Positions 44,109-58,775 of a stretch of 64,000 nt of DNA are shown one piece after another. Positions within the stretch are counted from its first letter, which is position 1; each line of letters opens with the position of its first letter. The position numbers were made by a program, and so were the translations under genes. The stretch spans positions 1 through 64,000 of the forward strand of contig JALOOM010000003.1 of the NCBI GenBank assembly GCA_025454395.1, in the 5' to 3' direction. The notes under the pieces are model-generated. The model worked only from the letters and a program-made list of their open reading frames with translations, made no database searches and had not been told where the DNA came from. Source of the stretch: Elainella sp. Prado103. Lineage in GTDB: Bacteria > Cyanobacteriota > Cyanobacteriia > Elainellales > Elainellaceae.

Positions 44109-45122
44109 TCACGAACTCGATAAACTTTGTTCCGGCACACCGGCTTTGAAAATCGCACTGTTGGCAAAAAAATCTTGCAGCAGTTGGGGCGGATCGGTAT
44201 CGGGCTTACGTTGAATGACGCGCCGCCCCCGCCACAACAGAAAAGCCACCATCCAAATGGCATCGGCGATCGCCGCATAGAACCGGCCATGGTTTTTGAC
44301 AAAATAGCGACGACGAGAGTCAAACCAGTATTGGGGCAACCGTTTGGGTTTTTCGGTGCGCACGGTCACGCCAGTACTCTGTCCAGCAATATGCATGACT
44401 CGGCTTTCAGGCACATACCAGCATTCCCAACCAGCTCGACGCGCTTGCAAGCAGAAATCGGTTTCTTCGAAGTAAAGGAAATAACCTTCATCCATCAGGC
44501 CGATCGTTTCAAACACTGCTCGACGAATCATCATACTGGCTCCAGGCAACCAATCGGTCGCGGCTGGCTCATCCGTCATCCACCGTACTACTGACCAGCG
44601 AGACAGCAATTTCGTGATGATTCCTAACCGCAAGCCACCTTCTAGCTCACTCAAAATTGAAGGGAAGCGGAAAGTCATTTTCCAGGGTTCGCCATCTGCC
44701 TCTTCAAAACTACTGCCGCAGATCCCAACCTGCGGATGAGCCTGCATGAAACTCAGCAAAGGCTGTAAAGCACCCGATCGCACAATGGTGTCCGGATTTA
44801 ATAGCCAGTAATAATCAGGGGGTGCCTCCGATTGTAAAGCCGGACGAACGGCGTAGTTGTTGCCATAGGCATAACCCCCATTGGTTTGAGAAGGCATCAA
44901 AGTGACCCAATCCCCCCACTGCTCTTGGGTAATGGCATCACCAATTACTTGCAGAGAATCATCGCCAGAAGCATTATCCACCACTGCGACCCGTACGCCT
45001 GGATGCCCTGAGACTTCCGGTTTGAGCGATCGCAGGCAATTCACCACAAGCTGAGCGGTACGGTAGTTCACAATCACAATCAGCACTGAGGAGGCTGAAG
45101 AAGGTTGAACTGCATCTGTCAT
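44109..45122 (-). CDS. GT2-family glycosyltransferase (rhamnosyltransferase-like)
   Basis: 337 residues, inverting GT-A fold. Motifs: VLIVIVNYRTAQLVVNCLRSL at the start, VAVVDNASGDDS, QTNGGYAYGNNYAVR, YYWLLNPDTIV as the metal-binding DxD-like site, DWLPGASMMIRRAVFETIG and the acceptor-site FEETDFCLQARRAGWECWYVP. This is the pattern of WbbL-like rhamnosyltransferases in O-antigen or exopolysaccharide synthesis. The C-terminal part has one hydrophobic helix (about 283-297, AIADAIWMVAFLLWRG) that may touch the membrane. It is 130 bases downstream of the large FkbH fusion on the same strand and could share its transcript. Confidence 0.88.
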   Translation of the reverse strand: MTDAVQPSSASSVLIVIVNYRTAQLVVNCLRSLKPEVSGHPGVRVAVVDNASGDDSLQVIGDAITQEQWGDWVTLMPSQTNGGYAYGNNYAVRPALQSEAPPDYYWLLNPDTIVRSGALQPLLSFMQAHPQVGICGSSFEEADGEPWKMTFRFPSILSELEGGLRLGIITKLLSRWSVVRWMTDEPAATDWLPGASMMIRRAVFETIGLMDEGYFLYFEETDFCLQARRAGWECWYVPESRVMHIAGQSTGVTVRTEKPKRLPQYWFDSRRRYFVKNHGRFYAAIADAIWMVAFLLWRGRRVIQRKPDTDPPQLLQDFFANSAIFKAGVPEQSLSSS

Positions 45123-45254: not shown

Positions 45255-48200
45255 TCAGGCAATCATCGTAGGCAATTGGGTTGAGTTTGAGGAAGCTAGC
45301 AATGCCAGTTGGCGATCGATATAAGCCTGCATTGCATCAGCCAAGATAGCCACATTCGGCTCTTGTAACATGCTGGAATGGCCGCCTGGGACATCTTGCA
45401 CAATCACACCAGCCGTAACGCGCTGCTCCCAACCCAACAGGGGATCACTATACACCTCGATCCAGGGTTCGTCAGTGCCGCTACCTTGCGTGGCTCGCAC
45501 CAAAAACACTTCCCCATCAAACTGAGAGGGGATGTAATCTTGCTCAGCAAACTCGTAGATTTGACGCACGGAAAGCGGCTGTAAAAATGAGGGGATGGCT
45601 TGTCCTCGATCCAGGTAGGAACGGAGCAGGCGGAGCTGAATTTTGTGCTGAAGCTGCAAAAATCGAGATTGGGTTTCATAAACGAGCAGATTGCTCACCT
45701 TTTGGCTAACCTTTAGCGCGATCACTCCCACCTTTTGTAAGGGATTAAGCTGCTGTTGCTCCGCAAATACACTGGAAAATCGCTTCAGCCGTTGTTCAGC
45801 CACTCGACCGATCCGCTTGGGAGTGGCGACATCTGCAGCATCCAACAGCGCAACCATCGCGACTGTCTCCCCCTGGAGTTGCAACTGTTGGGCTATTTCA
45901 AACGTAATCACACCACCGGCACACATGCCACCAATCAAGTAGGGGCCCTGCGGCTGTACCGATCGAATTTTTTTAATGTAGTAGGCAGCCATATCCGGAA
46001 TGCGAGTATGGAGCATGGCCGCGTCCGATCGGCTGTGGGGTTGCAGCCCATAAACCGGGTGAGCCGGGTTGAGCCGATTGGCTAAGTTGCGATAAAGCAG
46101 AGTTTCTCCATCGCCATCATGCACCAAAAACACGGGCGGTTGGTCGCCCCCTACCCGCAACTGCACCAGAGAATCCATCGCTTCAGATTGGTTCAAGACT
46201 TGGGCCAGTTGCTCGACAGTCGGCGCACTGACTAAAGCCGTTAAGGGCAGCTTTTTGCCAAACTGTTGCTCAATTTGGGCAAACAGCTCAACCGACAACA
46301 AGGAGGTACCCCCGAGATCGAAGTAATCATCCGTGACTCCGACCGATTCCACCTGCAACAGTTCAGCCCAGAGTTTGGCGAGATCAGCTTCCGTCAGCGT
46401 GCGGGGTGCCACATAAGGACGCTGACTCGATCGTTGCTGGCAGCTCCGTCCCGAGCTGATGACAGCCAACACTAGAGTGGGTTGATACCACTGAGTCGCA
46501 ATTTTACCCAAGTAGTCTGATTTACTGATCGTCGCTCCAGGTTGAGTGCTAGTTTGAGGTTGCTTTTGCGGTTGCTGGGGAGCCCCATCGACTGCGGCAG
46601 GGGTAGGTTCACTCGCGGGCTGATAAACCAGCGCGGCTGCGACTGAGACGGGCATTTCATATCGATCGCCTGTCTCGATCGGTTGACGATAGTCCGCAGC
46701 AATCCGCTCCAAGAAATTACGGGCGGGCAGATTTTTCTTGCTGGGAATAAAATCAGCCTGAACCCAAGTTAGCTCTCGCTCTTCGGCGATTTTGCCTAGA
46801 TGTTGCATCATCTGATGCTCGACTCCCCGCCCTAACACCCGACAACTGAGCAGAAAAGTGTCAATTCGTAAAGCTGCCTGTTCCCGACCAAAAATCATCA
46901 CACCGACTAGGCCATAATCACCAAAGCGATCCCGCACGGTGACGGCGCGACATTCCAACCCAGCAGCAGCTAACTGCTGAATCTGACTATCACTGCGGCG
47001 CACGGTCGTAAAATTAAACTGATTGGTACGCTGGGTGAGTTGGGCGATGCGAGGCAACTGGGCGGCATCAGGCTCTGCAATTTCCACTTGCAGGTCTAAC
47101 CCTGCTAAGAAGGCATCGATCGTCAAGGTTTGCTGTTGGAAACGCTCCCGTTCCAGGTTTTGCTTGTAGAGCAAAGTGCGCTGCTGATCTTCGGCCGTTA
47201 CTTTAAGATGGTCAAATGCCCAAACATGCTGCAAGAACTGCGGTATATTCCCCTGGATCGGCAACTGTAGCGTCAGTACTTCAGGGCAGTGGGTACGAAC
47301 CTCTGCACATTCAACCGGATTATCATCCAAGAAGATGAAGCTATCGAGACCCAGGTTCAACTCTTGGGCTAAAGAACGAATATTCTGCGATTTGGGCAAC
47401 CAGTTAATCCGCCAAGCGACGATATGCTCTAGCTTCAGCGGCATCTCTGGACGTTGCTCAAACACCTCCAGTACATCTGCCTCATTGTTCTTGCTACAAA
47501 AACAGAGCAACATACCTGCTGCTTGCTGGGCGATCATAAACTGCTGTAACGCCTGATAGGCAGGAGTAATCTCAATGCCAGACACCCCATCTTCACCGAC
47601 AATGCCACGCCAGATCGTGTTGTCGCAATCCAGCACAATCACCTTATGGGGAGCGGATTTAATCGTATATAGTTTGCGAATAATTGCCGTTGCGAGCGCC
47701 GTATAAAACAAGGGAGTAAAAGGGATATGTCCCAACCGATCGCGCTGAGCATCGTAGTAGTCTGCCACCGGGTAGCGCGCTAAATCTTCGCTCCGGATCC
47801 AGTGAAGATTGCTACATCCCCCCAGTTCAGCTTCTAATTTCGCTTGCCAGGATTGGGTGAAGGCTCGCCAGTGCGGGTCAGCCTCAGCAGCCGGTGAACT
47901 GGGACAAAGGCAGAGCAAATAGGGCGAAGTTGATCGAGCAGTGGCTGCCTGAAGAGCAACGATGAATTCATCCAAGTTCCGTTCGATCGCAGCCTGAGTG
48001 CTGGCATCCTCTCTCGGCAGATCACGGCTCCAATCTTCAAATCGCAGCAGAATTACATTTGCTCCCTGCTGATTTTGGGACAGCAAACTGGTGGGATCGA
48101 GCAGTTGTTGAAAGATCTGGTTGTAAGGCGCAAACTCAGCAGTTCCTAACCAGTTGAGTTGTTTGATCCAAAAATTTAAACTCTCTTCAAGTGGTTCAGC

Positions 48201-48272
48201 GGTGAAGGTAGCAGCAACTGCAATGGTCATCGCAGTTGAAATTTGCACAGAATCCTGAGGGAGAGTTGGCAT
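45255..48272 (-). CDS. FkbH-like / carrier protein / thioesterase fusion
   Basis: 1005 residues. Residues 20-205: SGNH-like N-terminal region of FkbH proteins. About 208-330: HAD domain with Asp215 and Asp217 in VLDCDNTIWRG and FLDDNPVE. About 385-530: GNAT-like end (QRTNQFNFTTVR, SCRVLGRGVE). About 615-695: NRPS-type carrier domain with phosphopantetheine Ser657 in LGGTSLL. About 705-1000: type I thioesterase with Asp811 and His965, but the nucleophile is Cys784 (GGMCAGG) in place of Ser. FkbH enzymes take a glyceryl unit from 1,3-bisphosphoglycerate and load it on a carrier, so this may load, hold and release a C3 unit by itself. No synthase or activation domain is nearby. ATG at 48272 or 48230. 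Confidence 0.87.
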   Translation of the reverse strand: MPTLPQDSVQISTAMTIAVAATFTAEPLEESLNFWIKQLNWLGTAEFAPYNQIFQQLLDPTSLLSQNQQGANVILLRFEDWSRDLPREDASTQAAIERNLDEFIVALQAATARSTSPYLLCLCPSSPAAEADPHWRAFTQSWQAKLEAELGGCSNLHWIRSEDLARYPVADYYDAQRDRLGHIPFTPLFYTALATAIIRKLYTIKSAPHKVIVLDCDNTIWRGIVGEDGVSGIEITPAYQALQQFMIAQQAAGMLLCFCSKNNEADVLEVFEQRPEMPLKLEHIVAWRINWLPKSQNIRSLAQELNLGLDSFIFLDDNPVECAEVRTHCPEVLTLQLPIQGNIPQFLQHVWAFDHLKVTAEDQQRTLLYKQNLERERFQQQTLTIDAFLAGLDLQVEIAEPDAAQLPRIAQLTQRTNQFNFTTVRRSDSQIQQLAAAGLECRAVTVRDRFGDYGLVGVMIFGREQAALRIDTFLLSCRVLGRGVEHQMMQHLGKIAEERELTWVQADFIPSKKNLPARNFLERIAADYRQPIETGDRYEMPVSVAAALVYQPASEPTPAAVDGAPQQPQKQPQTSTQPGATISKSDYLGKIATQWYQPTLVLAVISSGRSCQQRSSQRPYVAPRTLTEADLAKLWAELLQVESVGVTDDYFDLGGTSLLSVELFAQIEQQFGKKLPLTALVSAPTVEQLAQVLNQSEAMDSLVQLRVGGDQPPVFLVHDGDGETLLYRNLANRLNPAHPVYGLQPHSRSDAAMLHTRIPDMAAYYIKKIRSVQPQGPYLIGGMCAGGVITFEIAQQLQLQGETVAMVALLDAADVATPKRIGRVAEQRLKRFSSVFAEQQQLNPLQKVGVIALKVSQKVSNLLVYETQSRFLQLQHKIQLRLLRSYLDRGQAIPSFLQPLSVRQIYEFAEQDYIPSQFDGEVFLVRATQGSGTDEPWIEVYSDPLLGWEQRVTAGVIVQDVPGGHSSMLQEPNVAILADAMQAYIDRQLALLASSNSTQLPTMIA

Positions 48273-53367: not shown

Positions 53368-53426
53368 GAGATCCTACGAGGCTGAGATCCTACGAGGCTG
53401 AGATCCTACGAGGCTGAGATCCTACG
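53368..53426. repeat. 16-bp tandem repeat, 3.7 copies, reaching into the lectin stop
   Basis: GAGATCCTACGAGGCT three times plus a partial fourth. The partial copy contains the TAG stop of the lectin gene (minus strand, 53422-53424). Confidence 0.95.
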
Positions 53427-54753
53427 CGACAAAGTAATCTGCCACTTTCAGCGTGCCTTTCTTCAGATCACCAGACTTAAACTGGATACCAGTGACATCG
53501 GCTAGCAAATCATCAGTCGGTGAGAACCCGGCCCGGCCGTTGTTGATCGACAGATAGGTTGAGTTGCCCAACCGGAAGAATATGGCTTCTCCCGCCTTCA
53601 ACCGCTGATCACCCTTCTTCTTGAAATCTTTATCGTTGTAGGCGGCTTCTGCGGCTTTCAGCAGGTTTTTGCCTTTTTCCTTGCCGGAATTGAACAAACC
53701 ACGCGGTTTTTCGATCGTTTCAAGATTGCGATCGAAGTCAAGCCCAAACTTATCACCTTCAGAGAAGCGGAAGTCAGTGATTCGATCGCGAGAACGCAAG
53801 GTTGAACTCCGGAGCGCTTCTGTGCGAGAAGCTCCACGGAAGTAGAAGCGATCAACATCGGTACCACCTGTCAAGGTATCGCTCCCCTGATTACCAATCA
53901 GAATATCATTACCGGCATTTCCGACCAGGCTATCATTGCCGTTACCCGTTTCAATCACGTCGTTGCCCCCGCCACCGATGGGTTTACTGGGAGTATCCCC
54001 TGGCTGCACAATCACCAGATCACCACTGAAACTACCTGGGATCGGTGTGCCATTAAAAGCGGTAACCCGGAAATTACCGACTTCATGGATATTGGTCTGG
54101 GCACCTGTGGAAGCCGCAAAGCCAAAAAAGAAAGAGGTCGGCAGGGTTCCGTTGCCATTGGCCACAACATCCAGTCCAGGAATCGCATTTTCCCCAAGAT
54201 CATCAAAATCTCCATCCTGGTTTAGATCCACCTTGACAGACAAGACCCCTGTCGGTGCCAGATCAATCTTGGCCGTTCGCTTCGAGTTTTCCCGAGTGGC
54301 TCCCGCACCAGGATTGTCTAGACTCAGTCCAGACGGAAGCTGGGTGCCGGACAAATAGTTGTAGTTGGTGACCTGGCTACCCCGCACAACGATCGCATCT
54401 GACTGATTCCCTGGTCCGCCTGTCCGTCCTTCTGTCGGTGAAGAATAGCTCCCAAATTCATCGAAGCCAATTCCCAAATAACCGCCATCCACACCAGGTT
54501 GCACAATCCCATCCAGTTGATAGGGCGCATAGCCCAGCGAGCCCCCAAACCCCCCAACGCGCTGGATCGGTTTAGCACCATCCACTAAGAAAAAGCTGAT
54601 GCCATCTGCACCTGTTCCACCATAGGCATAGAAATCGAAGGTGATGGATAGTCCCCCGGCTGAGGAAATGGGTGCTTTATTTTCAGTTGAGTAGACCAAA
54701 TAGGCAGACTGATTCGCAACTGCATCGGTCAATCTCAAAATTTCGTTAGACAT
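53422..54753 (-). CDS. Secreted RTX protein with L-type lectin-like domain
   Basis: 443 residues from the ATG at 54753; a TTG 14 codons upstream is less likely. No Sec signal. N-terminal domain (about 10-235) has the legume-lectin-like pattern ITFDFYAYGGTGADGISFFL and GYLGIGFDEFG, a carbohydrate-binding beta sandwich, with a DLNQDGDFDD calcium loop. Then RTX nonapeptide repeats (about 262-300: GGGGNDVIETGNGNDSLVGN and NAGNDILIGNQGSDTLTGG) that fold on calcium outside the cell. The C-terminal part ends in Val-Ala with a hydrophobic DYFVA, like type I secretion signals. Likely exported by the ABC exporter encoded 595 bases away. Confidence 0.87.
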   Translation of the reverse strand: MSNEILRLTDAVANQSAYLVYSTENKAPISSAGGLSITFDFYAYGGTGADGISFFLVDGAKPIQRVGGFGGSLGYAPYQLDGIVQPGVDGGYLGIGFDEFGSYSSPTEGRTGGPGNQSDAIVVRGSQVTNYNYLSGTQLPSGLSLDNPGAGATRENSKRTAKIDLAPTGVLSVKVDLNQDGDFDDLGENAIPGLDVVANGNGTLPTSFFFGFAASTGAQTNIHEVGNFRVTAFNGTPIPGSFSGDLVIVQPGDTPSKPIGGGGNDVIETGNGNDSLVGNAGNDILIGNQGSDTLTGGTDVDRFYFRGASRTEALRSSTLRSRDRITDFRFSEGDKFGLDFDRNLETIEKPRGLFNSGKEKGKNLLKAAEAAYNDKDFKKKGDQRLKAGEAIFFRLGNSTYLSINNGRAGFSPTDDLLADVTGIQFKSGDLKKGTLKVADYFVA

Positions 54754-55347
54754 AGTGCGTATCGTGATGAATTGAACAGGGAGAATTGGACACAATTAAA
54801 CAAATTGCCACCGTTGCCAGCACATCGTTGCCAGCATTCTGAGCAGCCCCAAAGTGAGCTAGCCGGACAGAGCAGCGCACAGGGCTCGATCCATGGATTC
54901 ATCCATAGATCAGAATCTTGCGATCAAATTGGGTAGAGTGCGTTTCAGTTTAATTAGGCGGTTGCAACCGTTACCCTTCCTACAGGATGAGCCGATCATC
55001 CTTCACAAAACTTGACAAAACCAGATCTTTTGCAGATTGACACGAATAAAACCGTGCCTTGTGTGAATGGGAGCTTCTTCAAATCGGAGCATTTCATCCC
55101 AAACGCATCTCTCTCAGAGAATCCGCTGGATGATTGAGGCATATCTGCCTTAGTTAACCTTTCCTGAGTGTCTAATACTCGGTCGATCGATCGCTCTCAT
55201 TTTCGCCAGGATTTATTGAAGATTCACCAGAGTGCCGGTTGAGTAAACCCTCAGTAAAGTTCCTGAGTTCCCTGAAACAAATTCTACTCCCTATCACCGA
55301 GGTTTGCATCGATACCAGTGAGGCAGCCAGGGGAGACGGAACTAGAA
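54754..55347. other. Lectin promoter region
   Basis: 594 bases without a gene between the ABC exporter and the lectin gene, both on the minus strand. Contains a near-perfect inverted repeat at 54888-54911 and the palindrome CGGTTGCAACCG at 54959-54970, so the lectin gene probably has its own regulated promoter. Confidence 0.5.
54888..54911. promoter_or_regulatory. Inverted repeat, candidate operator of the lectin gene
   Basis: GATCCATGGAT and ATCCATAGATC are inverted with one mismatch around two bases, about 135 bases upstream of the lectin start. A regulator cannot be named. Confidence 0.35.
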
Positions 55348-57873
55348 TCAGACCGATGCTTGTTGCCGTTGATAGAGCGACCAATACAGCCCTTTTTGTT
55401 GGATCAGGTGATCATGGGTGCCGCGTTCAACGATCACCCCTTTTTCCATGGTCAAAATTAAATCAGCCTGTTTCAGAGGCGCGAAGCGGTGGGCGATCAA
55501 AAACATCGTTCGATCTTTAGAAATTCGCTTCAGATTTTCCAGAACTTGCTGTTCCGTTTCAGCGTCCAGGTGGCTCGTCGCTTCATCCAGGATCAAAATT
55601 GGCGCATTGGAGAGAAACAAACGCGCCAGGGTGATCCGCTGACGTTGTCCCCCTGATAGAGCCGTGCCCCGCTCACCGACATTGGTTTCATAGCCATCGG
55701 GAAGATCGCAAATGAAATCATGGGCAACTGCCAATCGGGCTGCTTCCAACACCTGCTCTGCGGTCACATCAGGATTACCGAGGGTAATATTTTCTAGGAT
55801 GCTGCCGTTAAACAAGAAGTCTTCTTGCAACACCACAGCAATTTGAGGCCGCAGGGAAGCGAGATCGGCACTTTTAATATCAAAGCCATCGATCGAAATT
55901 CGCCCTGACTCAGCCTGGTAAAGCCGCTGGATCAGTTTTGACAAAGTGCTTTTTCCCGATCCACTCCGTCCAACAATGCCCACAAATTGCCCAGGCTGGG
56001 CTTCGAAGGAAACCCCTCGCAGGATCGGCTCCTGGGTATCTTTGTAGCGGAAAAAGACCTGATCGAAGGCCACCTGCCCTTTCAAGGGTGGCAACATCAA
56101 GCCCGTACCCGGTTCGGCTTCGGGAGCCACGTTTAAAATGTCCCCAATGCGATCGACCGCCAACAACACTTCTTGTAGGGTTTGCCAGAGTTGAATCAAG
56201 CGCAGCAATGGCCCTGTCACATGCCCAGACAACATTTGAAACGCCACCAATTGCCCGATCGTCAACTGCTGTTTGATCACCAACTGAGCCCCAAACCACA
56301 GAATCAGCAAAGCCGAAAAGCTGGTCAAGAAGTCACCCAGGTGGTTGCTCACATTCGCCGTCGTTGAAGCCTTGAAGCCCGTGCGGACAAACCGGGCATA
56401 GAGCCCTTCCCATCGATCGCGCGACGCTTTCTCAGCCGCATGGGCCTTCACCGAATGGATGCCCGTCACCGTTTCCACCAAGAAAGACTGACTATCGGCA
56501 CTGCGGTTAAAGGTTTCATTCAGCCAATGCCGCAAAATCGGAGTGGCTAACAAGGTGAGGATGGCAAACAGGGGAATCGCCGCCAGTGCTACACCCGTCA
56601 GCTTCGGGCTGTAGTAAAACATCATGCCCAGATAGACCACGGAGAAGATGCTGTCGAGCACCACGGTTAGAGCAGTGCCGGTTAAAAACTGACGAATTTC
56701 CTCCAACTCTTGCACCCGCGCCACCGTATCGCCGACCCGTCTCGCCTCGAAGTAGGAGAGTGGCAGTCGCAGCAAATGCCGGAAGAGTTGGGCCGACAAG
56801 GCCATATCCAGGCGATTGGTGGTGTGCGTGAAAATGAACATCCGGAGAATGCCCAGAATCGCCTCAAAGACCGCCGCACCGAGCAGGGCGACCGCCATCA
56901 CATCCAGGGTGGCCAGGCTCTCCTGCACCATCACCTTATCAATGATCACCTGGGTGATGATGGGGCTGGTCAAACCTAAAATTTGCAGGGTGAACGAGGC
57001 GAGCAACACTTCACCGAGCAGGGTGCGGAACTTCCAGACCGCTGGCAAAAACCAGCTCAGGTTAAAGTTTTCTTGCTTGTGAATTAAATCGACTTGCCAG
57101 AGTTGCCCATCCCAGGCTTCTTGCACGAGGGGACGGGGCACCGTTTCACAAGTTTGGGACGGATTCATCGGGTCAGCCAGAATCAGTCGATCGCCCCGGA
57201 CTCCGTAAGCCACCACCCAATGGCCGGGCTGTTGCCATTGCAGCAGGGCTGGAAAGGTAATTTGCCGCAGATCTCGCCAGTCCCCAATCAGCAACCGCCG
57301 CATTTGCAGGCCAATTTTTTCGCCCGTATCAATCAAGTTTTTAGGACGCTGTCCCCGTAACTGCCGCTGTACCCAGTCTTGTTGCACCGGCGTGTCTAAA
57401 TATTGAGACAGCATCGTTAGGGCGGCCGCCCCGCTGTTGATGCCCGATACAAAAGGGTAACCCGTAATCGGCAGGGGTTGATCGGTGAAATTCGGTTGAT
57501 AGCGCGATCGAAGGGATGCCCAAAACTGCTGAATCTCAGGGATTGGAAAATCTTGCCATACCTCGGTCGCCCACTCTAACACCACGACCTCTTTGCTGGC
57601 TGCCCGCGCCTTCCATTCATCGCTGAGAGACAGCAAATCGCCAAACCAATCCCCTGGTTTCAATAGCACAGGTTTGCCGTCATTCGGCACTAACCGCACA
57701 TTGCCACTCACCACCAGAAATTGGCAACCCGCATCGATCGACCAAATCACCTCACCCAAGCGATGGGTTCGAGGTTTCGCGTGATCTTTCAGTTGCACCT
57801 GTTGTGCCGCACTCAGCCAGCCAAGAGGGGGAACATCCCATGCGATGCCCGCCAGGAGATCATTGGTAATCAT
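55348..57873 (-). CDS. Type I secretion ABC exporter with degenerate C39 domain
   Basis: 841 residues. Cyclic-nucleotide-binding-like beta domain at about 35-110, then a C39-peptidase-like domain (about 135-255) that has lost its Cys: the usual DCG is INSG with Ser147, while His218 (PGHWVV) and Asp234 (LADP) remain. This is as in HlyB, so it docks cargo and does not cleave leaders. Six membrane helices (about 280-545) and an ATPase with Walker A GRSGSGKST (634-642), LSGGQRQR and LILDEATSHLD follow. It overlaps the upstream isomerase gene by 4 bases (ATGA), so the two are translated together. No HlyD-type adaptor gene is beside it. Likely cargo is the RTX lectin downstream. Confidence 0.9.
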   Translation of the reverse strand: MITNDLLAGIAWDVPPLGWLSAAQQVQLKDHAKPRTHRLGEVIWSIDAGCQFLVVSGNVRLVPNDGKPVLLKPGDWFGDLLSLSDEWKARAASKEVVVLEWATEVWQDFPIPEIQQFWASLRSRYQPNFTDQPLPITGYPFVSGINSGAAALTMLSQYLDTPVQQDWVQRQLRGQRPKNLIDTGEKIGLQMRRLLIGDWRDLRQITFPALLQWQQPGHWVVAYGVRGDRLILADPMNPSQTCETVPRPLVQEAWDGQLWQVDLIHKQENFNLSWFLPAVWKFRTLLGEVLLASFTLQILGLTSPIITQVIIDKVMVQESLATLDVMAVALLGAAVFEAILGILRMFIFTHTTNRLDMALSAQLFRHLLRLPLSYFEARRVGDTVARVQELEEIRQFLTGTALTVVLDSIFSVVYLGMMFYYSPKLTGVALAAIPLFAILTLLATPILRHWLNETFNRSADSQSFLVETVTGIHSVKAHAAEKASRDRWEGLYARFVRTGFKASTTANVSNHLGDFLTSFSALLILWFGAQLVIKQQLTIGQLVAFQMLSGHVTGPLLRLIQLWQTLQEVLLAVDRIGDILNVAPEAEPGTGLMLPPLKGQVAFDQVFFRYKDTQEPILRGVSFEAQPGQFVGIVGRSGSGKSTLSKLIQRLYQAESGRISIDGFDIKSADLASLRPQIAVVLQEDFLFNGSILENITLGNPDVTAEQVLEAARLAVAHDFICDLPDGYETNVGERGTALSGGQRQRITLARLFLSNAPILILDEATSHLDAETEQQVLENLKRISKDRTMFLIAHRFAPLKQADLILTMEKGVIVERGTHDHLIQQKGLYWSLYQRQQASV

Positions 57874-58658
57874 TCACTTACCTGTAGTCTGATCGGAAGG
57901 GATTGCATTTTTTCACCTAACCATTGCTCGAAGATTTCCTCTTCAAGACTCTGCTTAATTTGGGGGTCTTCCAGGGAAGCTGGCAAGAAGGCTTCGATTC
58001 GAAACAGTCCCCAGCGTTCTTCCATGCCGATCGGCCCGACCACATCCCCTGCTTTCGCCAGATCAATTTCGGCTCGCATCAGATCCGGCATCGAACCCCG
58101 GCTGACTGGCCCCACCATCCCATTCATGATCCGATCGTCTGTGAGGGAATATTCGCGAGCCAATTGCTCAAACAAAGCCCCTTCTTGCAGTTGGGTTTTC
58201 AGTTCTTCTGCTAGCTCTCGGTCGTCCACAATAATCCGGGAAAGCACTACCCGATCGAGGTACATTTTGCGCTCGATAAAGTATTCGGGCAACCGGCTGG
58301 CAGTGACCGTTTCCCGCAGGCTGCGCATCCGAAAGCCCACCTCAATCTGGCGATGAAATGCCTCGTAGGTGAGCCCGTTGCCAGACAACCATTCCTGGAA
58401 TTTAGCTGGATCGGTGAGCTGGTTACTTAAACGAAAATCGATCACTGCTTGCTCGATCGTGGCAGAGCTAACATTTGTCTCTTGAGACTGCAACTCGCGT
58501 TCCATCACAAACTGTCGGACGATGTCACCGATGAATGCATCCAGTTTGCGCGTAGCTTGCAAATAGTTCAAAATCTGCCCGCTGGAGATGGGCTGGTCAT
58601 CAATAAACAGGAAAGGTTCAGAGGTCATGAATGCGCGCATCGACTTCAGCACCCCCAT
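57870..58658 (-). CDS. PpiC/SurA-type peptidyl-prolyl isomerase
   Basis: 262 residues from the ATG at 58658; ATGs at 58640 and 58628 are also possible and a TTG at 58688 less so. A helical N-terminal chaperone part (SurA_N-like, about 15-140, ISSGQILNYLQATRKLDAFIGD) is followed by a parvulin domain (about 150-240; LFEQLAREYSLTDD, GPVSRGSMPDLMRAEI, GDVVGPIGMEERWGLFRIEAF). No signal peptide is seen, which suggests a cytoplasmic role in handing unfolded cargo to the exporter. Similar isomerase-exporter pairs occur in cyanobacterial type I systems. Confidence 0.83.
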   Translation of the reverse strand: MGVLKSMRAFMTSEPFLFIDDQPISSGQILNYLQATRKLDAFIGDIVRQFVMERELQSQETNVSSATIEQAVIDFRLSNQLTDPAKFQEWLSGNGLTYEAFHRQIEVGFRMRSLRETVTASRLPEYFIERKMYLDRVVLSRIIVDDRELAEELKTQLQEGALFEQLAREYSLTDDRIMNGMVGPVSRGSMPDLMRAEIDLAKAGDVVGPIGMEERWGLFRIEAFLPASLEDPQIKQSLEEEIFEQWLGEKMQSLPIRLQVSE

Positions 58659-58775
58659 TATGCCCAAACTCCGGGGGGCTTTGTCCAAACTTTATGAATG
58701 GGTTAAGTAAGATTACGAGAATTGGATCCGGTCTGAGCCGATATCTGGTTGCACTGCACCAACCTGACTATAAAG

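Follow-up and report, generated by a model that had tools for sequence, protein, structure and literature searches.

An orphan FkbH–carrier–thioesterase protein paired with a GT2 glycosyltransferase in cyanobacteria: a candidate module for glycan acylation

We analysed the first 64,000 bases (the window) of a 200,937-bp contig (C32) of the cyanobacterium Elainella sp. Prado103 and, within it, a gene at 45255–48272 on the minus strand that encodes an FkbH–carrier–thioesterase protein (FAT). The gene is linked to a GT2 glycosyltransferase gene that, in other cyanobacterial loci, is paired with a hexapeptide acetyltransferase instead. Based on these contexts, we propose with a probability of roughly one half that FAT and GT2 form an acyl-decoration module, in which the thioesterase (TE) would move a carrier-bound glyceryl unit onto a rhamnose-type glycan or glycolipid and would take the place of an acetyltransferase. 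The probable role of the system is to add glycerate to a surface sugar, and not to produce a free, antibiotic-like molecule.

Results

Domain architecture of FAT

FAT is encoded by a complete open reading frame of 1005 amino acids with an ATG start. Its genome holds no second full-length copy; the remaining matches are two carrier-domain ones. Profile searches and a codon-by-codon check (D215, D217, T219, Ser657, Cys784, Asp811 and His965) bear out the domain order and the carrier and TE residues given in the preliminary description of this DNA. The N-terminal ~205 residues before the HAD core (47658–48272, minus strand) are kept in full-length homologues, with F34, N51, F54 and G70 aligned as invariant. 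The FkbH domain (HAD-IIIC, a family of glyceryl transferases/phosphatases; residues 209–526; 46695–47648, minus strand) scores 303.5 bits against TIGR01686, for which the cut-off is 146.65, and carries the HAD motif DxDxT as D215-C-D217-N-T219, found in 16/16 FATs that cover this region. Cys259 of a CSKNN motif in the same domain is aligned as invariant (17/17 FATs), and the HAD core aligns with BF1531 (PDB 3slr) at 108.8 bits.

The phosphopantetheine carrier (residues 631–692; 46197–46382, minus strand) matches the PP-binding profile with 57.6 bits, and profile and alignment place the attachment site at Ser657. The TE domain (residues ~713–987; 45312–46136, minus strand) scores 84.6 bits over residues 713–974 against a Pfam cut-off of 26.4; this score, the triad C784-D811-H965 and the fold match identify it as a type I thioesterase of the alpha/beta hydrolase fold. 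Its nucleophile Cys784 (codon TGT, 45921–45923, minus strand) is embedded in a GGMCAGG motif. A scan for promoters and terminators gave counts near the shuffled expectation. We rejected a recent foreign island, since GC content (0.520) and GC content at third codon positions (0.536) of the gene agree with those of the window.

FAT homologues and linkage to GT2

A survey of 390 cyanobacterial genomes yielded 17 full-length FATs, which fall into three sets by TE motif. The GGMCAGG set comprises 10/390 genomes: the window, G011 (same genus), G034, G044, G037, G061, G088, G148, G206 and G322. Two divergent proteins carry GGFCAGG (G019 and G104), and five, with TEs apart on the tree, carry GQC[SA]GG (G140, G176, G182, G251 and G351). 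The nearest named relative, from Elainella saxicola E1, is 70% identical to the window's FAT. Cysteine had been noted in the window's FAT where serine is usual, with a comparison of homologues proposed; the nucleophile is cysteine in every one (17/17). Asp811 and His965 are retained in 15/17, and both GGFCAGG proteins have Asn and Phe at these positions.

In the window, the next gene after FAT encodes a 337-residue GT2 (44109–45122, minus strand), co-directional with FAT and separated from it by 133 bp. We found the same GT2 on the same strand, 5–133 bp away, in 9/9 GGMCAGG loci in which the next gene lies on the contig, and the GT2s beside FAT are 63–76% identical to that of the window. The remaining locus, G148, is split between contigs: 120 bp separate FAT from the end of one contig, and a 69% identical GT2 stops 2 bp from the end of another, as a broken FAT–GT2 operon would look. 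The surroundings differ between genera, with petD beside FAT in the window, a tryptophan-synthase-like gene after GT2 in G034, Mfd in G206 and a run of FAT–GT2–rmlC–rmlD with gaps of only a few bases in G044. The pairing is therefore not mere synteny, and the linkage that the preliminary description suggested checking holds across several families and genomic settings.

The two GGFCAGG proteins (L040:11164-14085 and L081:8903-11809) keep the FkbH–carrier–TE order and the Cys, have lost both Asp811 and His965 and have no adjacent GT2, so that catalytic residues and adjacent GT2 go together. Their TEs are probably inactive or repurposed. The GQC[SA]GG family has a longer C-terminus (L082:8813-12052, L083:3230-6454, L084:9118-12393, L085:9285-12524, L086:9407-11971); at L086, a different GT2 adjoins.

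Exchange of the acyl partner of GT2

The gene after FAT had been described as a surface-type GT2. The assignment to GT2 stands and the surface type is plausible, while the specific family is weakly indicated: the best NCBIfam match of the window protein is the dTDP-L-rhamnosyltransferase TIGR01556 with 43.9 bits, well below the cut-off of 200.55. All GT2s tested (19/19) match this family, and no relative of solved structure was found by sequence or profile. rmlC and rmlD directly follow GT2 at one FAT locus only (G044), rmlC adjoins two GT2–hexapeptide fusions, and rmlC also occurs in the window's genome. The GT2 is probably an L-rhamnosyltransferase.

We counted the neighbours of GT2 loci in the 390 genomes after removal of near-copies. 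Nineteen loci adjoin a TE with a Cys nucleophile (Cys-TE), 45 adjoin a hexapeptide acetyltransferase and six are GT2–hexapeptide fusions, with no locus holding both partners. All TE-linked GT2s form one clade (SH-aLRT 99), together with seven GT2s that have a hexapeptide gene upstream, in the TE's own position; outside this clade the hexapeptide partner prevails. Because TE and acetyltransferase exchange as partners of the same GT2, the TE would transfer its acyl group to a sugar hydroxyl, and acylation of the same saccharide by both partners would best account for the shared GT2 from its context. The fusions are located at L165, L166, L177, L179, L190 and L193, and at L177 and L179 rmlC comes next.

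A different outcome of the same gene pair would be a small soluble product: the TE could glycerylate a small acceptor, or GT2 could rhamnosylate the glyceryl unit, to give a glyceryl glycoside or ester that acts as a compatible solute, signal or metabolite. Two conserved genes would be chemically sufficient, dTDP-rhamnose genes are present in the G044 operon and genes for exopolysaccharide export are not fixed beside FAT. We consider this outcome unlikely, if still worth weighing, as some relatives of GT2 occur with polysaccharide export or GT4 genes (an SLBB export gene adjoins one GT2–hexapeptide pair, and two further members of the family have GT4 genes close by) and most occur with acetyltransferases that resemble those of surface polysaccharides.

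Several observations weigh against glycan acylation by FAT and GT2. FAT has neither an export nor a polymerase gene as a constant neighbour, and the donor assignment rests on weak hidden Markov model scores and one FAT locus with rmlCD. The hexapeptide partner resembles WcaB, EpsC and CysE with scores below their cut-offs, so that its acceptor is only putative. At about 12 GT2 loci no acyl partner was recognised, and the triad persists in all five GQC-type FATs, which lack an adjacent GT2 of this family. G012, of the same genus as the window, keeps the GT2 locus with petB- and petD-sized and downstream genes, and neither FAT nor acetyltransferase adjoins; GT2 may therefore work alone. The 318-bp gap between petD and GT2 in this genome (L124:5100-5418) contains no FAT remnant, with short matches at chance level only. 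Finally, adenylation–carrier–thioesterase (A-T-TE) relatives of FAT could dimerise their acids rather than acylate a sugar.

The Cys-thioesterase clade and its loaders

The carrier–TE half of FAT shares ~48–55% identity with the corresponding half of A-T-TE proteins from other cyanobacteria, and the GGMCAGG and GGFCAGG FATs form one Cys clade with these proteins (support 100/99). Downstream of many of these A-T-TE genes comes the same GT2, and genes for prephenate dehydrogenase and genes resembling 4-hydroxyphenylpyruvate dioxygenase (HPPD) are close by. A third version, in which a condensation domain precedes carrier and TE, lies beside the GT2 at L146, with a carrier–TE half in, or close to, the Cys clade. 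FATs are not cleanly a single branch within the clade, so that exchange of loaders is possible, as is an unresolved root.

The adenylation (A) domains of the A-T-TE proteins read FTFS, in contrast to the FDAS of amino-acid-activating domains. According to the specificity rule, the Asp of FDAS holds the alpha-amino group; the FTFS sequence thus suggests that the substrates are acids without an alpha-amino group. A recurrent cluster combines an A-T-TE protein, or a longer protein resembling a nonribosomal peptide synthetase (NRPS) with a Cys-TE, with prephenate dehydrogenase and an HPPD-like/VOC gene, in many cases joined by the GT2 and in some by an O-methyltransferase-like gene (L041, L042, L044, L139, L140, L142, L154, L155 and L157).

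These relatives raise the question of whether the TE joins two carrier-borne units to a dimeric or oligomeric glycerate ester that GT2 then glycosylates, in analogy to the fungal A-T-TE synthetases of quinones and furanones. The FTFS signature, lacking the Asp for an alpha-amino group, and the neighbouring prephenate dehydrogenase and HPPD-like genes fit with such a reaction, and characterised fungal synthetases of this type couple two aromatic alpha-keto acids (PMC9047271). A glyceryl unit, however, has no keto group for the C–C step, and the replacement of an acetyltransferase as partner of GT2 points to a sugar as acceptor; we regard dimerisation by FAT as improbable. As an extension of glycan acylation by FAT and GT2, the Cys-TE clade may tentatively be seen as recruited in cyanobacteria for the carrier-dependent acylation of glycans. 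Exchangeable loaders, namely FkbH for glycerate, A domains for acids of the tyrosine pathway and condensation domains, would feed one TE that esterifies the sugar of the partner GT2 and replaces the usual acetyl-CoA hexapeptide enzyme. Such a system would tie assembly-line biochemistry directly to the decoration of surface polysaccharides.

Triad position and strained-ring formation

The preliminary description compared the Cys nucleophile of FAT with the TEs of obafluorin and sulfazecin synthesis (ObiF and SulM), which form strained rings. The triad Asp of ObiF and SulM follows the Cys by 108 residues (position II), and position I is Gly in ObiF, where a bulky residue is inhibitory (PMC11298585, PMC6668435). 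Introduction of Asp (with Asp1254 removed) or Leu at position I cripples ObiF (PMC6668435). In FAT, Asp811 lies 27 residues after Cys784, at position I, which is the position occupied in EntF and AB3403; it is Asp in 23/25 members of the clade, and a change to Asn occurs solely in proteins that have lost His965 as well. A second residue, D934, follows strand 7 near the Asp site of ObiF and SulM and is Asp in 21/25 members, so that a position-II role for it keeps a small probability.

The closest solved structure to the carrier–TE half is AB3403 (4zxh), with 138.7 bits by sequence and an E-value of 1e-21 by fold; ObiF1 (6n8e) comes 37th in the fold ranking. AB3403, too, combines a Cys nucleophile with an Asp at position I (PMC11298585). 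The fold comparison used an AlphaFold model of the carrier–TE half, built from 7 sequences with a mean pLDDT of 73.4 and a poor lid region, which supports the fold and not the triad geometry.

For FAT to form a strained ring, that is, a beta-lactone of glycerate in the manner of ObiF, the Cys in its GxCxG motif, the beta-hydroxyl of the glyceryl unit and the placement of D934 could be invoked. FATs share the Cys nucleophile with ObiF and SulM, yet they do not combine an Asp at position II with a position I lacking Asp. Asp811 stands where ObiF has Gly and where Asp impairs ObiF from which Asp1254 has been removed, D934 is variable (Asn in three GGMCAGG members, absent in one GGFCAGG member) whereas Asp811 is lost only with His965, and the nearest structure is AB3403 rather than ObiF. 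The analogy is not upheld by these data; a strained-ring TE was disfavoured on triad position, and we assign to it a probability close to nil.

Absence of an assembly line around FAT

The preliminary description stated that no A, ketosynthase (KS) or condensation (C) domain lies in the 64 kb. This is correct and can be extended. Family profile searches covered the whole genome, which is 99.29% complete: KS matches (PF00109) are confined to contigs C40, C77, C81 and C7 and A matches (PF00501) to C81, C9, C104, C51, C33 and C143, with neither on the 200,937-bp contig, and no C domain was found in the entire genome. One match to the phosphopantetheinyl transferase superfamily is present. The fetched flanks of FAT homologues, up to ~10 kb a side and shorter at contig ends, contain no A, C or KS domain of a polyketide synthase (PKS) or NRPS, where a KS from the window's own genome served as the query for KS. 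We looked in these flanks for homologues consistently beside PKS/NRPS genes and found no such pattern; FAT is a true orphan. As C domains are absent from the genome and A domains from its contig, it does not stand at the end of an NRPS line as ObiF and SulM do, and with no KS, C or A domain in the fetched flanks of its homologues it lacks the context of a PKS/NRPS loading module. It also differs from NRPS-like A-T-TE proteins in that FkbH replaces the A domain as loader, although the TE itself belongs to the same clade.

FAT might nevertheless be a detached loader that feeds a PKS or NRPS in trans, or its TE might merely hydrolyse glyceryl-ACP. Two large KS-bearing open frames (~2,900 aa) are present on other contigs of the genome, and FkbH loading modules of cyanobacterial NRPSs are known, such as AerB of suomilide and varlaxin (PMC10143770). 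A release domain would compete with transfer in trans, the fetched FAT flanks hold no partner domain of this kind and the GT2 linkage would be left unexplained. On the basis of these flanks and of the whole-genome domain search we disfavour this function, which has very little probability.

A further gene set in the window

In the region 53422–57873 of the window, an ABC transporter that includes a C39 peptidase-like domain neighbours a protein that has calcium-binding RTX repeats and weakly matches a legume-lectin-like domain. A peptidyl-prolyl isomerase gene (57870–58688) lies next to them, and the group looks like a secretion set.

Discussion

FkbH glyceryl loading is familiar from polyketide and peptide pathways. 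In FAT, it seems to serve a sugar-modifying enzyme pair that is spread over several cyanobacterial families. We suggest the following sequence of steps, for which the glyceryl substrate, the sugar acceptor and the direction and order of the two transfers are inferred. Based on family knowledge, the FkbH domain would dephosphorylate 1,3-bisphosphoglycerate and load the glyceryl unit onto the phosphopantetheine arm at Ser657; glyceryl loading from this substrate has been described for FkbH proteins (PMC7489565), with a cyanobacterial example (PMC10143770). The glyceryl unit would then pass to Cys784 as a thioester, a step that the triad makes plausible, and the TE would give it to a hydroxyl of the sugar acceptor in the hexapeptide acetyltransferase's stead. 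GT2 would either build this acceptor or cap an exopolysaccharide or glycolipid at its glycerylated sugar, presumably by transfer of rhamnose. Of the products considered in the preliminary description, glycerylation of a sugar gains from the GT2 linkage and a strained ring loses by the position of the triad Asp.

If this proposal is correct, FAT represents a route to glycerate esters on a bacterial glycan. Thioesterases would then exchange with a quite different class of acyltransferases, and apparent orphan natural-product synthases (FkbH–TE and A-T-TE genes) may belong to the cell surface. The parts are known, and the combination of FkbH loader, Cys-TE, GT2 and hexapeptide exchange did not surface in the searchable literature. 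No pair of an FkbH–carrier–thioesterase and a glycosyltransferase surfaced, a weak negative given that subscription journals are mostly uncovered, and the titles and abstracts searched contain no direct example of glycerate in cyanobacterial rhamnose polysaccharides.

Comparison with known systems places FAT between several enzyme classes. FkbH-like glyceryl loaders with an acyl carrier protein (ACP), as in tetronate and methoxymalonyl pathways (Mad7/Mad8, Mad14/Mad12; AerB), share with FAT an FkbH domain above the cut-off, the DxDxT motif, a carrier directly after it and the expected glyceryl-S-carrier product. FAT differs in being fused to a TE and paired with GT2, and its neighbourhood lacks a ketosynthase, a FabH-like tetronate enzyme and a condensation domain. 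The carrier–TE portion of AB3403 (ABBFA_003403, PDB 4zxh) from Acinetobacter baumannii is the closest solved relative and has the same Cys and position-I Asp, but it belongs to a four-domain NRPS module without FkbH and is 25% identical in the fold alignment. The TEs of ObiF1 and SulM are likewise type I with a Cys nucleophile; they differ in the position-II Asp, in the Gly at position I of ObiF and in forming a beta-lactone or beta-lactam as the closing step of NRPS lines. The non-reducing NRPS-like A-T-TE enzymes of fungi (atromentin, furanone) combine loader, carrier and TE without a condensation domain, as do the A-T-TE relatives of FAT; they have an A domain in place of FkbH and condense two aryl alpha-keto acids, and to our knowledge have no GT2 partner. 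The ACP–TE of Pks13 from the mycolic acid pathway is the best NCBIfam resemblance of the carrier–TE half (88.9 bits, far below the cut-off). Pks13 TE has a Ser nucleophile and sets a precedent for a TE that acts as an acyltransferase to a sugar, trehalose; it differs from FAT in its PKS context and very long acyl chain. The WcaB/EpsC-like hexapeptide acetyltransferases are a left-handed beta-helix of unrelated fold, with acetyl-CoA as the expected donor and no carrier, but they share the GT2 family partner of FAT and are predicted to catalyse O-acylation.

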